Position numbers and translations under genes: made by a program. From Halobacillus shinanisalinarum (GTDB lineage: Bacteria > Bacillota > Bacilli > Bacillales > Halobacillaceae): DNA of 64,000 nucleotides. Of the stretch, positions 49,401 to 58,665 are shown one piece after another. The notes below the pieces were generated by a model that ran no database searches, was not told the DNA's origin, and was given only the letters and a program-made list of their open reading frames with translations. How positions within the stretch are numbered: position 1 is the stretch's first letter; each line of letters begins with the position of its first letter. Where the stretch lies: positions 2,876,001 to 2,940,000 of the forward strand of contig NZ_CP095074.1 of the NCBI RefSeq assembly GCF_022919835.1. Reading direction: 5' to 3'.

Positions 49401-49461
49401 AGTCTATTTTTTTTATCTATATACTGTCTTTATCTAGAGGATGATGGGAGGGCGAGGATTT

Positions 49462-49926
49462 ATGGATGAACAAGAACAGTATCGTAAAAAGAAACAAGAC
49501 CCTTCTTTAAAGTTATTTGTCGTTTTGTCGAAGGCTCAGCGCGCGATAGCTGATTTAGTGAAGGACGATATTCAAAGTCATGGTTTGAACACGACGGAAT
49601 TTGGAGTGCTTGAACTTTTATACCACGAAGGTGATCAGCCATTACAGAAAATCGGGGAAAAGATTTTGTTAGCTAGCGGTAGTATTACTTATGTAGTAGA
49701 TAAACTTGAGAAGAAAGAATACCTTAGACGGGTTCCATCCCCTAATGACCGAAGGATTACCTTTGCTGCTATTACAAATAAAGGGGAAAATCTTTTGCAC
49801 GGGATTTTCCCAGAGCATTGGAAACAAATTGAATCGATTACAGGTGGCCTGTCTGATGAAGAAAAGCTGCAAGCTATTGACCTATTGAAACAACTGGGCA
49901 TGCATGCAGAGCAGCAAAAGAAGTAG
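49462..49926 (+). CDS. MarR family transcriptional regulator
   Basis: A 154-residue winged-helix regulator with LQKIGEKILLASGSITYVVDKLEKKEYL as helix-turn-helix and PSPNDRRITFAAITNKG as wing. The long, charged N-terminus and overall look resemble the MhqR/OhrR branch. No cysteine is seen in the N-terminal helix, so thiol sensing of the OhrR type is unlikely. Start at 49462 after GGCGAGGA; the ATG at 49441 is upstream of that site. It may be monocistronic; its target is unknown, with the ABC-F gene downstream a candidate. Confidence 0.88.
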   Translation: MDEQEQYRKKKQDPSLKLFVVLSKAQRAIADLVKDDIQSHGLNTTEFGVLELLYHEGDQPLQKIGEKILLASGSITYVVDKLEKKEYLRRVPSPNDRRITFAAITNKGENLLHGIFPEHWKQIESITGGLSDEEKLQAIDLLKQLGMHAEQQKK

Positions 49927-49985
49927 AAAAATTTAAATTAATCATGTACAATAGATGTATGACTAAAGACAAAGGAAGGATGAAG

Positions 49986-50060
49986 ATGTTATCAATGCAC
50001 GTGATTGATCGCGAATTATTGTATATCAATCGTGCGCTTTTTCATGGTTTAACTGTATAG
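49986..50060 (+). CDS. Leader peptide of the ABC-F gene
   Basis: A 24-codon frame, MLSMHVIDRELLYINRALFH then GLTV, with a strong AGGAAGG site six bases before the ATG. It is followed by a terminator and then the ABC-F gene. This layout (short leader ORF, terminator, resistance-type gene) is typical of genes switched on when an antibiotic stalls the ribosome on the leader. No protein function is implied for the peptide. Confidence 0.65.
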   Translation: MLSMHVIDRELLYINRALFHGLTV

Positions 50061-50137
50061 GGGACTGGTATGTCCAATTTTATAGTTAAATAATGGAAAA
50101 AGATAACGTCTCATACCTGATCATATAGTTAATGAAG

Positions 50138-50170
50138 AGTCAGAGGCGACGGGACCTCTGGCTTTTTTTG
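50138..50170 (+). terminator. Attenuator terminator before the ABC-F gene
   Basis: AGTCAGAGG pairs with CCTCTGGCT (one G-T pair) around an eight-base loop and is followed by seven Ts. It ends only 20 bases before the ABC-F start codon and inside the leader, so by default it would stop transcription. A competing upstream fold between the leader ORF and the terminator is likely but was not computed. Confidence 0.75.
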
Positions 50171-50189
50171 TCTTTAGGAGGAATTTGAA

Positions 50190-52037
50190 ATGATTACATT
50201 AAAAGATGTTTATAAAATTATTGGGGGCAAAGTATTATTTGAATCGCTCACTTTTGAAATAAATGAAGGACAAAAGCTCGGCTTGGTAGGCAGGAATGGC
50301 AGTGGAAAGTCAACGCTATTTCGTTTGATTACAAAGGAAGAATCACTTGATGACGGGGATCTGTTTATTAAAAAGGGACTATCCATTGGTTACTTAAAAC
50401 AGATTCCTGACGAATTCACTGGTACAGCGAAAGAGTATTTAGAGGAAGCATTTAATGAACTCAAGCATTTGGCTGAGGAAATGAAGCAACTTGAGAATAA
50501 AATGAAGGATCCAGCTAGAATGGAAAAGGCGCTTGCAGCTTACGGAGAGTTACAGGATCAATTTACTGAACTAGGCGGCTATGAAATAGAGTCATTAATC
50601 AGTCAGGTAGCCAATGGGATTAAGGTGGAAGGCTTGCTGCATCAACCATTTACTTACTTAAGCGGTGGAGAGAAAACAAAACTTTCGCTTGCGAGAATTT
50701 TGTTAGAAAAACCTGATGTGCTTCTACTTGACGAACCGACAAACCATTTGGATTTAGTCGCCATTGAGTGGCTTGAGCAACACTTGCAGCATTATAAAGG
50801 TACGGTATGCATGATCTCCCATGACCGATCATTCCTGGATCGCGTGGTTTCAGGAATTGTTGATCTTGAATCTGGCGAAGCGCGAAGCTATAAAGGAAAC
50901 TATTCTTCCTTTGAGCAACAGAAAGAGGAAAAGCTATTGGCAGAGTTTCATCAGTATCAGGAACAGCAAAAGAAGATAAAGAAAATGAAGGAAGCAATAC
51001 GGAGGCTGAGGCAGTGGGCTAATGAGGCAAACCCACCGAACCCGAAGCTGTTTAAAAAGGCCAAGAGTATGGAACGAGCTTTAGAAAAAATGGAGAAACT
51101 TAACCGCCCTGTTCTTGATCCTAAGAAAATGGGGCTGTCACTACAGGCTGAAGATCGAAGCGGAAATGATGTACTAATCGCAGACCATGCCAGTAAACAC
51201 TATGAAAGCAGACGAATTCTAACAGGGGTCGATCTCCAACTTCGTTACAAAGAGAGGCTGGCCATAGTTGGAGCAAATGGCAGCGGCAAATCGACACTTC
51301 TTAGGCTGCTGTTGGGGCAGGAAATGCCGGATTCAGGTGTAATTAAACAAGGCAGTTCTATTCAAATCGGTTATTTACCACAAAACCCTTTGCAAGGTGT
51401 GGATGATCAACAGCGGATGATTGATTATTTCAGACAATATATTAGAGTGACGGAAGGGCAAGCCAGGCACCTGCTGGCCGCCTTTATGTTTTATGGATAT
51501 GATGTGTTCCAAAAAATTGCCCATTTAAGCGGTGGGGAGCGCATGCGGCTCAAGTTAGCTATCTTTATGCATGAAGGGGTAAATTTATTAGTTCTTGACG
51601 AGCCAACCAATCACCTGGATGTTGAATCACAGGAAGTTCTAGAAGAAGCACTGCAGCATTTTGAAGGAACTGTAATTGGAGTATCACACGATCGTCACTT
51701 TCTAAATCAATGCTTCAGTGAAACAGCTTATCTTGTGAATGGCAGGCTCTATCGTTATTTCGGATCTTATAAGGAAACGAAAGAAAAATGGGCTGTCTTG
51801 TTAGATCAATCATGCCAACAATACCAAACAACTATACCCAAGAAACAACAAGGTAAATCGATTGAAATTGAAGTGTCTATAGAAGATAGGATAATGGAGC
51901 TTGAGGATAAGCTGAGTATAGTTGAAGGGAAGATCGGAAAGGAACCGAATGCTGATGAATTAATGGCTCTGCATGAAAAAAAAGAACGGCTGACAGAGAG
52001 AATTGAGCATCTATATGAATCATGGATCAACTCATAA
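50190..52037 (+). CDS. ABC-F family ATPase, possible antibiotic resistance/ribosome protection
   Basis: A soluble 615-residue protein with two ATPase domains and no membrane part. Walker A sites are GRNGSGKST (about 34-42) and GANGSGKST (second half); signatures are LSGGEKTKLS and LSGGERMRLK; both have LLLDEPTNHLD or LVLDEPTNHLD. The linker (about 250-310) contains KMKEAIRRLRQWANEANPP and KKAKSMERALEKMEK, the arm that reaches the ribosome in ABC-F proteins. The C-terminal 70 residues are a coiled coil. The attenuator leader argues for an antibiotic-inducible member, but a housekeeping YdiF/Uup-like role is possible. AGGAGG before ATG. Confidence 0.88.
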   Translation: MITLKDVYKIIGGKVLFESLTFEINEGQKLGLVGRNGSGKSTLFRLITKEESLDDGDLFIKKGLSIGYLKQIPDEFTGTAKEYLEEAFNELKHLAEEMKQLENKMKDPARMEKALAAYGELQDQFTELGGYEIESLISQVANGIKVEGLLHQPFTYLSGGEKTKLSLARILLEKPDVLLLDEPTNHLDLVAIEWLEQHLQHYKGTVCMISHDRSFLDRVVSGIVDLESGEARSYKGNYSSFEQQKEEKLLAEFHQYQEQQKKIKKMKEAIRRLRQWANEANPPNPKLFKKAKSMERALEKMEKLNRPVLDPKKMGLSLQAEDRSGNDVLIADHASKHYESRRILTGVDLQLRYKERLAIVGANGSGKSTLLRLLLGQEMPDSGVIKQGSSIQIGYLPQNPLQGVDDQQRMIDYFRQYIRVTEGQARHLLAAFMFYGYDVFQKIAHLSGGERMRLKLAIFMHEGVNLLVLDEPTNHLDVESQEVLEEALQHFEGTVIGVSHDRHFLNQCFSETAYLVNGRLYRYFGSYKETKEKWAVLLDQSCQQYQTTIPKKQQGKSIEIEVSIEDRIMELEDKLSIVEGKIGKEPNADELMALHEKKERLTERIEHLYESWINS

Positions 52038-58451: not shown

Positions 58452-58665
58452 AAGGATGTTCAAAAAATCACTAAATGATAAATGGCGCATTTCTTCGTTG
58501 CTCGGTTTTTCCGGTCCTCACATATGAAAAGCATACGTTATGGTTCCCAAAACTGTCGCGCCTCGACTTCTTGCGACGCACAAGGAACGTGCTAGTGTCG
58601 ACTTTGTCACAGGATGTGACGTTCTTTGTCGACGTTCTCATTCGTCAACTTTTTGAACACACACT
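58452..58665 (+). repeat. MITE-like dispersed repeat, long copy
   Basis: It starts GGATGTTCAAAAAATCACT, continues AAATGATAAATGGCGCATTT and ends GTCAACTTTTTGAACACACA. The interior contains TGCGACGCACAAGGAACGTG and GTCGACTTTGTCACAGGATG, absent from the 55503 copy and probably a nested insertion or expansion. It lies between cshA and the convergent rhomboid gene. Confidence 0.88.

Follow-up and report, generated by a model that had tools for sequence, protein, structure and literature searches.

The locus studied here raises the question of whether the RNA in front of an ABC-F gene controls the expression of that gene, and by what means. It lies in a 64,000-nucleotide stretch of DNA (the window) from Halobacillus shinanisalinarum, whose genome measures 4.89 Mb. 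A sequence-only reading of the window had proposed a leader-peptide attenuator, in which a short open reading frame (ORF) and a terminator precede the gene and a drug that stalls the ribosome on the leader switches the gene on.

Organization and conservation of the locus

All features of the element lie on the forward strand. The leader ORF (49986–50060) begins with the ATG at 49986, ends with the stop codon at 50058–50060 and comprises 24 codons, read as the peptide MLSMHVIDRELLYINRALFHGLTV; an alternative in-frame ATG at 49980 would make it 26 codons long. Related elements were compared in a main alignment of 29 of the 31 Halobacillus/Thalassobacillus loci, H. shinanisalinarum included, with L023 and L027 omitted for their long insertions before ABC-F. 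The ATG at 49986 is present in all 29 sequences. The leader Shine-Dalgarno sequence AAAGGAAGG (49971–49979) carries one mismatch in H. shinanisalinarum, whereas 24 of the 29 have an intact GGAGG; the sequence-only reading was right about the 24-codon frame and slightly generous in calling its ribosome-binding site strong. It had also placed the end of the terminator 20 bases before the ABC-F start, exactly where we find it: the intrinsic terminator T2 (50136–50169) consists of a stem at 50136–50165 and a U-run to 50169, 20 bases ahead of the ABC-F ATG at 50190. A candidate leader promoter, TAGAAA-17-TACAAT (49924–49952), scores 9/12 in a consensus scan and lies just behind a MarR-type gene. 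Promoter-like sites are no commoner in the region than in shuffled sequences, and a TATAAT-like box occupies this place in most aligned sequences. The MarR-type regulator gene (49441–49926) is directly upstream of the element, and a similar frame ends here in the Halobacillus relatives inspected. Elsewhere in the window, an Rfam Bacillaceae-1 RNA lies above its gathering score at 58578–58644 on the reverse strand.

The ABC-F gene (50190–52037) encodes a protein of 615 amino acids with two NBDs (Walker A motifs GRNGSGKS and GANGSGKS, with LSGGE and DEPTNHLD) and the linker RLRQWANEANPPN. Both ABC domains are intact by sequence, and the first contains an insertion that we take to be the Arm. Two NBDs and a short linker are shared with OptrA, EttA and PoxtA, to which the protein is 37.8%, 34.0% and 33.0% identical, respectively. 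The linker is intermediate in length (47 aligned residues, compared with 47 in PoxtA, 39 in OptrA, 34 in EttA and 66–68 in two Vga-type proteins), and its tip reads WAN.ANPPN in the aligned Bacillaceae members. The named relatives of highest identity are from Halobacillus, and OptrA is the nearest named plasmid-borne resistance ABC-F among the best 40 of 800 records. In a tree with long branches, whose deep joins we left unused, the protein forms a clade of its own with a Listeria protein and Bacillaceae orthologs (support 100/99). The protein stays below the cut-off of every named resistance ABC-F family (Vga, Lsa, Msr, Sal, OptrA, CplR), its best score being 347 bits against Sal (cut-off 725). 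The broad model NF000355 is passed with 443.6 bits (cut-off 380); because four more ABC-Fs of the same genome also pass, we rejected this match as proof of a resistance function. The same genome also encodes a Vga-type ABC-F with a long linker (L006, G000:C1:4050304-4051446), which groups with Vga(A)LC at 100/100 support.

A scan of species genomes, from which the best 80 of 487 ABC-F relatives were kept, places the element upstream of the gene in all 80 loci; it was recognized by the leader peptide in 76 and by a covariance model (see below) in four loci of Psychrobacillus (L055, L069, L073 and L078). Of 84 loci, 79 have a terminator that separates the leader from ABC-F, against 0.3 expected from shuffles, in a count that omits L090, L092, L093 and L095–L098 as duplicates of named loci. 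The leader frame of the relatives is 33–53 codons long and contains an LYxxRAxF core and, towards the C terminus, the stretch G-I/T-R/S-M-S/P; that of H. shinanisalinarum stops about 11 codons sooner than its nearest relative's. One locus recorded as Arthrobacter (L079) is of Bacillales type, with a leader closest to that of Sporosarcina (L053), and its genome label may be wrong.

We also searched 199 genomes of the order, using the peptide family RAxF-45 (NF041642), of which the H. shinanisalinarum leader is a truncated copy, at E up to 1e-5 and ABC-F at E up to 1e-120. RAxF-45 was found in 91 genomes, ABC-F in 112 and both in 90. A leader not conserved with the ABC-F gene would have spoken against the sequence-only reading; instead, 89 of the 92 RAxF-45 matches lie upstream of ABC-F on the same strand, 109–609 nt away. 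The other three comprise one locus split by contig ends, one match before a frameshifted ABC-F and one orphan remnant, so that linkage reaches 91 of 92 when the contig break and the frameshifted gene are counted in. At L196 (G145), an intact leader stands upstream of an ABC-F that is broken into several frames. ABC-F is present without a RAxF-45 match at E 1e-5 in 22 genomes, among which a weaker peptide match occurs in G002 and G031, an RNA-model match at the G016 locus and a leader bearing the T1 hairpin (see below) in G079. Taken as a whole, leader ORF, terminator and ABC-F gene are supported as one conserved unit.

Fold of the leader RNA

The RNA from 49960 to 50192 folds at −81.9 kcal/mol, compared with −48.9 kcal/mol (sd 4.3) for 200 shuffles (z −7.7). 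Across the 29 aligned sequences, the drawn structure is 86.7% paired, against 83.8% when shuffled and 39–45% when slid, and the cells changed on both sides number 77 versus 29.8 in shuffles. Further pair types, 1 of 5 covariation measures, show no excess in the same sequences (53 versus 54.2).

The best-supported helix of the predicted structure is P1, which would bury the leader's own ribosome-binding site. Its 5′ strand (49977–49993) takes in the end of the leader Shine-Dalgarno sequence and the start codon, and pairs with the anti-RBS strand at 50102–50118; covariation, RNAalifold and folds of distant loci all point to this pairing. In the alignment, 98.8% of the cells of the main helix are paired, with double changes at columns 53/179 and 55/177, and a two-pair extension (columns 62–63 with 175–176) is 91.4% paired with double changes in both pairs. 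In every one of the 46 more distant loci, folding predicts that the leader ribosome-binding site pairs with sequence 3′ of the ORF (P 0.63–0.94; shuffled mean 0.19); z lies below −2 in 45 of them (25 shuffles each), and the mean fold z is −4.95.

Outside P1 lies a second helix, P0, seen and tested in Halobacillus/Thalassobacillus. It joins CTAAAGAC (49963–49970) to GTCTTTAG (50170–50177), and its 3′ strand takes in the leading AG of the ABC-F Shine-Dalgarno sequence AGGAGG (50176–50181). All eight pairs are retained in 29 of 29 aligned sequences despite seven variants of the 5′ strand, a count that is biased because the pattern used to search for the 5′ strand admitted only pairing-compatible letters; RNAalifold also recovers the helix without that pattern. 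The support is mostly one-sided (G-U changes), and the sole double change is a 3′ GCC in three rows, each with GGC on the 5′ side.

Two hairpins lie within P1. HA (49997–50035) pairs GCACG (49997–50001) with CGTGC (50031–50035), the Arg-Ala codons of the leader. Its five-pair core, as given by RNAalifold, is retained in 28–29 of the 29 sequences, partly via G-U changes; the longer stem of the H. shinanisalinarum fold is 67.9% paired, its inner part being unconserved. HB (50041–50097) is 83.7% paired with double changes in five pairs, and encloses the T1 hairpin. The T2 and T1 stems are paired in 98.0% and 97.4% of cells.

T1 (GGGACTGGTATGTCC, 50061–50075) is followed here by AATTTTATA and by a T-run in most distant relatives. 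A loose T1 motif occurs in 76 of 77 loci. TTNTTT, described as a polymerase pause motif (PMC9226507), lies no more than 9 nt behind T1 in 31 of the 46 distant loci and in 7 of 31 Halobacillus/Thalassobacillus loci; the other 24 of the latter, H. shinanisalinarum among them, lack it there. A short hairpin with TTTTTT behind it fits this motif and suggests a polymerase pause or a weak terminator.

In the relatives, the peptide stretch G-I/T-R/S-M-S/P corresponds at the DNA level to a sequence close to GGGAHAMGTNTGYCC. Among 73 leaders the GGG codon is invariant, and the next four codons are near-invariant in their third positions and variable in their first and second. This pattern, the reverse of what selection on a protein leaves, indicates that the stretch is conserved for its RNA or DNA; the residues just before Arg-Ala do show protein-like constraint in the same table. 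In erm(D) and msr leaders, moreover, T1 lies 42 nt past the stop codon, and therefore encodes no peptide motif there, whereas in the element studied here it lies inside or right behind the leader. On both grounds, we rejected the idea that the T1 stretch acts as an arrest motif in the peptide.

Relation to RliI, RAxF-45 and other antibiotic leaders

The Rfam model of the Listeria RNA RliI (RF01487) matches 49961–50168 over its full length with 34.0 bits (E 2.1e-7 in a 351-base search), short of the gathering score of 45 bits. Formal membership in RF01487 thus fails at the curated score, and the reading of the leader as an RliI-like element is well supported. Listeria RliI stands directly upstream of the orthologous ABC-F gene, whose product is the Listeria protein of the 100/99 clade. 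It shares with the H. shinanisalinarum element an outer helix burying the ribosome-binding site, likewise predicted there, together with two inner hairpins, a terminator and a leader ORF with the LYxxRAxF core, which scores 25.5 bits against RAxF-45 (cut-off 27). Unlike the Halobacillus element, the RliI leader has no match to the T1 pattern. A review, in the passages that treat RliI, describes it from term-seq as a putative conditional terminator of lmo2760 (PMC8079631). From the position of RliI we infer that the Listeria ABC-F at L099 is Lmo2760, a name absent from the L099 record.

A covariance model built from 23 of the 29 Halobacillus/Thalassobacillus elements (near duplicates omitted, H. 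shinanisalinarum included) recovers 54 of 54 held-out loci, Listeria RliI among them (E 2e-4). The same model gives two additional weak matches (E 0.07 and 0.74). L213 and L215 are also matched weakly (E 0.01–0.02); L213 precedes an MFS gene, and L215, with an apparent PTS gene downstream, was not counted as an element.

Nine of 11 scanned leaders pass the NCBIfam cut-off for RAxF-45. The leader peptide encoded by H. shinanisalinarum stays below it (18.1 bits versus 27), and a six-frame match that runs past the leader stop (50010–50081) reaches 29.4 bits. By these profile comparisons, RAxF-45, a family whose library entry gives no function, is this element's leader peptide. In the portions of the open-access literature that we searched, no paper connects RAxF-45, RliI and the leader studied here.

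The T1 hairpin reaches beyond this element. An exact T1 with five trailing T occurs 61 times in 55 of the 199 genomes, and the reversed pattern does not occur in them. Forty-six of these matches belong to the ABC-F element, namely that of G079 and 45 with a RAxF-45 match no more than 40 nt away. Of the remaining 15, eight lie before one kind of MFS transporter and one before another MFS transporter; Msr-type ABC-F or MFS-plus-Msr genes follow four more, and the last two lack a recognized leader. These gene kinds were judged by eye except for L222, L206 and L216. At 780 bits, the L222 protein clears the Msr family cut-off of 680; L206 and L216 encode MFS proteins that reach no specific family cut-off. 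The Msr-type leaders encode MTHSMRLRFPTLN-like peptides, which is the sequence of ErmDL as given in PMC10314930. Using blastn, we also found leaders with slightly different T1 copies at mef(F)-msr(G) and at erm(D), the latter annotated in its record as a predicted resistance feature. The recurrence of T1 in erm(D), mef/msr and MFS-pump leaders argues for antibiotic control.

Twelve T1-bearing leaders were folded (erm(D), mef(F)-msr(G), Msr, MFS and another ABC-F; L209–L213, L215, L218–L221 and L226 lie outside this set). All 12 are predicted to have the leader ribosome-binding site paired with sequence downstream of it (P 0.66–0.80, shuffled 0.14–0.33); because the leaders were chosen for carrying T1, only this burial counts as a test. 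The erm(D) and mef(F)-msr(G) attenuators (leader MTHSMRLR...) share with our element the ribosome-binding site buried by a strand behind the ORF, and T1 with its T-run. Their leader is described as having 14 codons and a macrolide arrest motif (PMC10314930), compared with 24 codons here.

Several further T1 copies deserve mention. A second, related attenuator (for example MHTFTVDIK...LGTSLSFFS, T1 and a terminator of its own) precedes an MFS transporter of about 400 amino acids at L206–L213, L217–L219 and L223. At L214 (1953–2391), a 12-codon leader, MNTPVVLQMVLA, has T1 right after its stop codon and lies upstream of a different ABC-F of 514 amino acids. L226 and L221 carry T1 without a recognized leader or resistance gene; L226 retains a leader remnant, and the copy in L221 is unexplained.

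An upstream ORF and a control region before an ABC-F gene are also described for vmlR, vgaL/Rli53, cplR and lsaA (PMC9226507; PMC10201436; PMC8079631). According to these sources, their upstream ORFs encode 3–4 residues (MIN, MRI, MAGN), in contrast to the 24 codons of the present leader and the 33–53 of its relatives. In vmlR and cplR, control of transcription and of translation is reported to be combined (PMC9226507; PMC10201436), a two-level arrangement that the combination of T2 and P0 resembles, here with a long leader.

A proposed switch and its alternatives

We propose that the leader RNA is an attenuator. ABC-F would probably stay silent while ribosomes move freely past the start of the leader ORF and come on once one of them is arrested there, the most likely cause being a drug against the large ribosomal subunit. 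In undisturbed cells, ribosomes would pass the leader start, P1 would shut behind them and polymerase would halt at T2, leaving an RNA of about 200 nt. If a ribosome stalled within the first codons, or if ribosomes queued as far back as the start codon, P1 would stay open, and the strand thereby freed (50115–50122) could delay the terminator and permit read-through. The same held ribosome would prevent P0 from forming and leave the ABC-F ribosome-binding site free for translation. T1 would pause the polymerase during the decision, and the ABC-F product would then act on the stalled ribosomes.

Fold modelling bears on the first of these steps. Before the 3′ arm of T2 is made, its 5′ arm is predicted to be sequestered (P > 0.5) in 6 of the 29 sequences without a masking ribosome, and in 27, 28, 20 and 11 of them with a ribosome masked at codon 1, 3, 5 and 8, respectively; from codon 11 onward, masking changes nothing in these sequences. 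The modelling thus gives good grounds for expecting a ribosome at the leader start to open P1. The candidate antiterminator strand ACCTGATC (50115–50122) could pair with 50138–50146 in the T2 5′ arm when P1 is open, and the commonest predicted partner of that arm is a conserved CCTGATT adjoining P1 (alignment columns 189–195). Folding the RNA for an antiterminator, the check that the sequence-only reading had suggested, yielded this candidate and only a small excess of pairing: the mean is 0.67 versus 0.59 with a shuffled linker, and higher in 24 of 29 related rows. We regard the antiterminator as plausible. At equilibrium the terminator wins, with P 0.95–1.00 in H. shinanisalinarum and on average in every masked state, and therefore the switch must be kinetic. 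P0 may add a second, translational layer of control: we infer that a ribosome held at the leader start would also occupy its 5′ strand or push it aside. The attenuator reading thus stands as regards a conserved leader, terminator and ABC-F unit that resembles known antibiotic attenuators, and is weakest at the antiterminator, which exceeds chance only slightly. A drug-inducible attenuator is the likely reading of this leader, and the uncharacterised ABC-F subfamily that includes the Listeria protein is a likely drug-inducible ribosome factor.

The trigger could conceivably reside in the peptide instead, a possibility that we consider doubtful. Ribosomes would stall at Arg-Ala-x-Phe, for instance with a phenicol-type drug, and those trailing behind would hold P1 open. 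The Ala is found in 73 of 74 leaders, and hydrophobic second codon positions are conserved just before it. Chloramphenicol and linezolid are reported to depend on an alanine context at the penultimate position, and OptrA and PoxtA to have short linkers (PMC8987054); OptrA is also the nearest named resistance protein in the plasmid comparison above (37.8% identity, among the best 40 of 800 records). However, CGTGC doubles as an arm of HA, which would explain its conservation without the peptide, and in the fold model, which places a single ribosome and no queue, a lone ribosome at codon 11 or beyond leaves the fold unchanged. A single ribosome at the RAxF site is weakened as the direct trigger by that result. 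The suggestion that the peptide may define the inducing drug finds little to hold on to here: the frame is cut short, and the C-terminal motif is constrained as RNA or DNA, its letters recurring past the erm(D)/msr stop. With its leader truncated and its T1 weakened in H. shinanisalinarum, the peptide is therefore a poor guide to the drug.

The truncated leader, the mismatched Shine-Dalgarno sequence and a T1 lacking TTNTTT mean that the H. shinanisalinarum copy may work less well than those of its relatives. It is unlikely that decay has gone so far as to leave the gene mostly constitutive or mostly silent. The sequence comparison that reveals these three defects also finds P1, P0 and T2 intact. 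The covariance model gives this copy 163.5 bits, fourth among the scanned genomes (the copy being in the training set), and the erm(D), Msr-type and L214 ABC-F leaders also stop before T1.

We find it quite unlikely that the leader serves primarily in autoregulation, where a natural pause on the leader would be resolved by the ABC-F itself, holding its level constant and making drugs secondary. Presence of the gene in 11 of 11 genomes of the genus would fit such a role, as would a short linker closer to those of EttA and OptrA than to the Vga types, and MsrD expression has been described as repressing its own induction (PMC10314930). Yet T1 and P1 also occur in the leaders of erm(D) and of MFS genes, which encode proteins other than ABC-Fs. 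Finally, it is very improbable that the terminated leader is itself the functional product, a trans-acting small RNA with incidental read-through into ABC-F, as proposed for RliI, which is reported to bind the lmo1035-1036 and Rli51 transcripts (PMC8079631; PMC11394854), for the element is upstream of ABC-F in 91 of 92 cases and P0 extends into the ABC-F ribosome-binding site.

The proposed attenuator may have a wider reach. Tentatively, and with slightly less than even confidence, we suggest that RliI, RAxF-45 and the leaders of erm(D), mef/msr, an MFS pump and several ABC-F genes form one modular class of antibiotic attenuators in Bacillales. Its members would have a buried leader ribosome-binding site and mostly a shared T1 (GGGAHAMGUNUGYCC-U6, a pause or early terminator), to which Halobacillus would add an extra helix that lets a stalled ribosome open both transcription and translation. 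What is new here is the link among RAxF-45, RliI and the ABC-F subfamily, together with the P0 helix and a T1 module common to macrolide-resistance leaders.

If these leaders do form one class, RAxF-45 would be in part an RNA motif annotated as a protein. The element is also a warning that a conserved short "protein" can owe its conservation partly to RNA. It brings together, as a single testable switch, three labels that stand apart in the sources consulted: a "small RNA" of Listeria, a peptide family with no stated function and the control of an ABC-F gene. By its peptide, this element is recognized in 91 of the 199 sampled genomes of the order.
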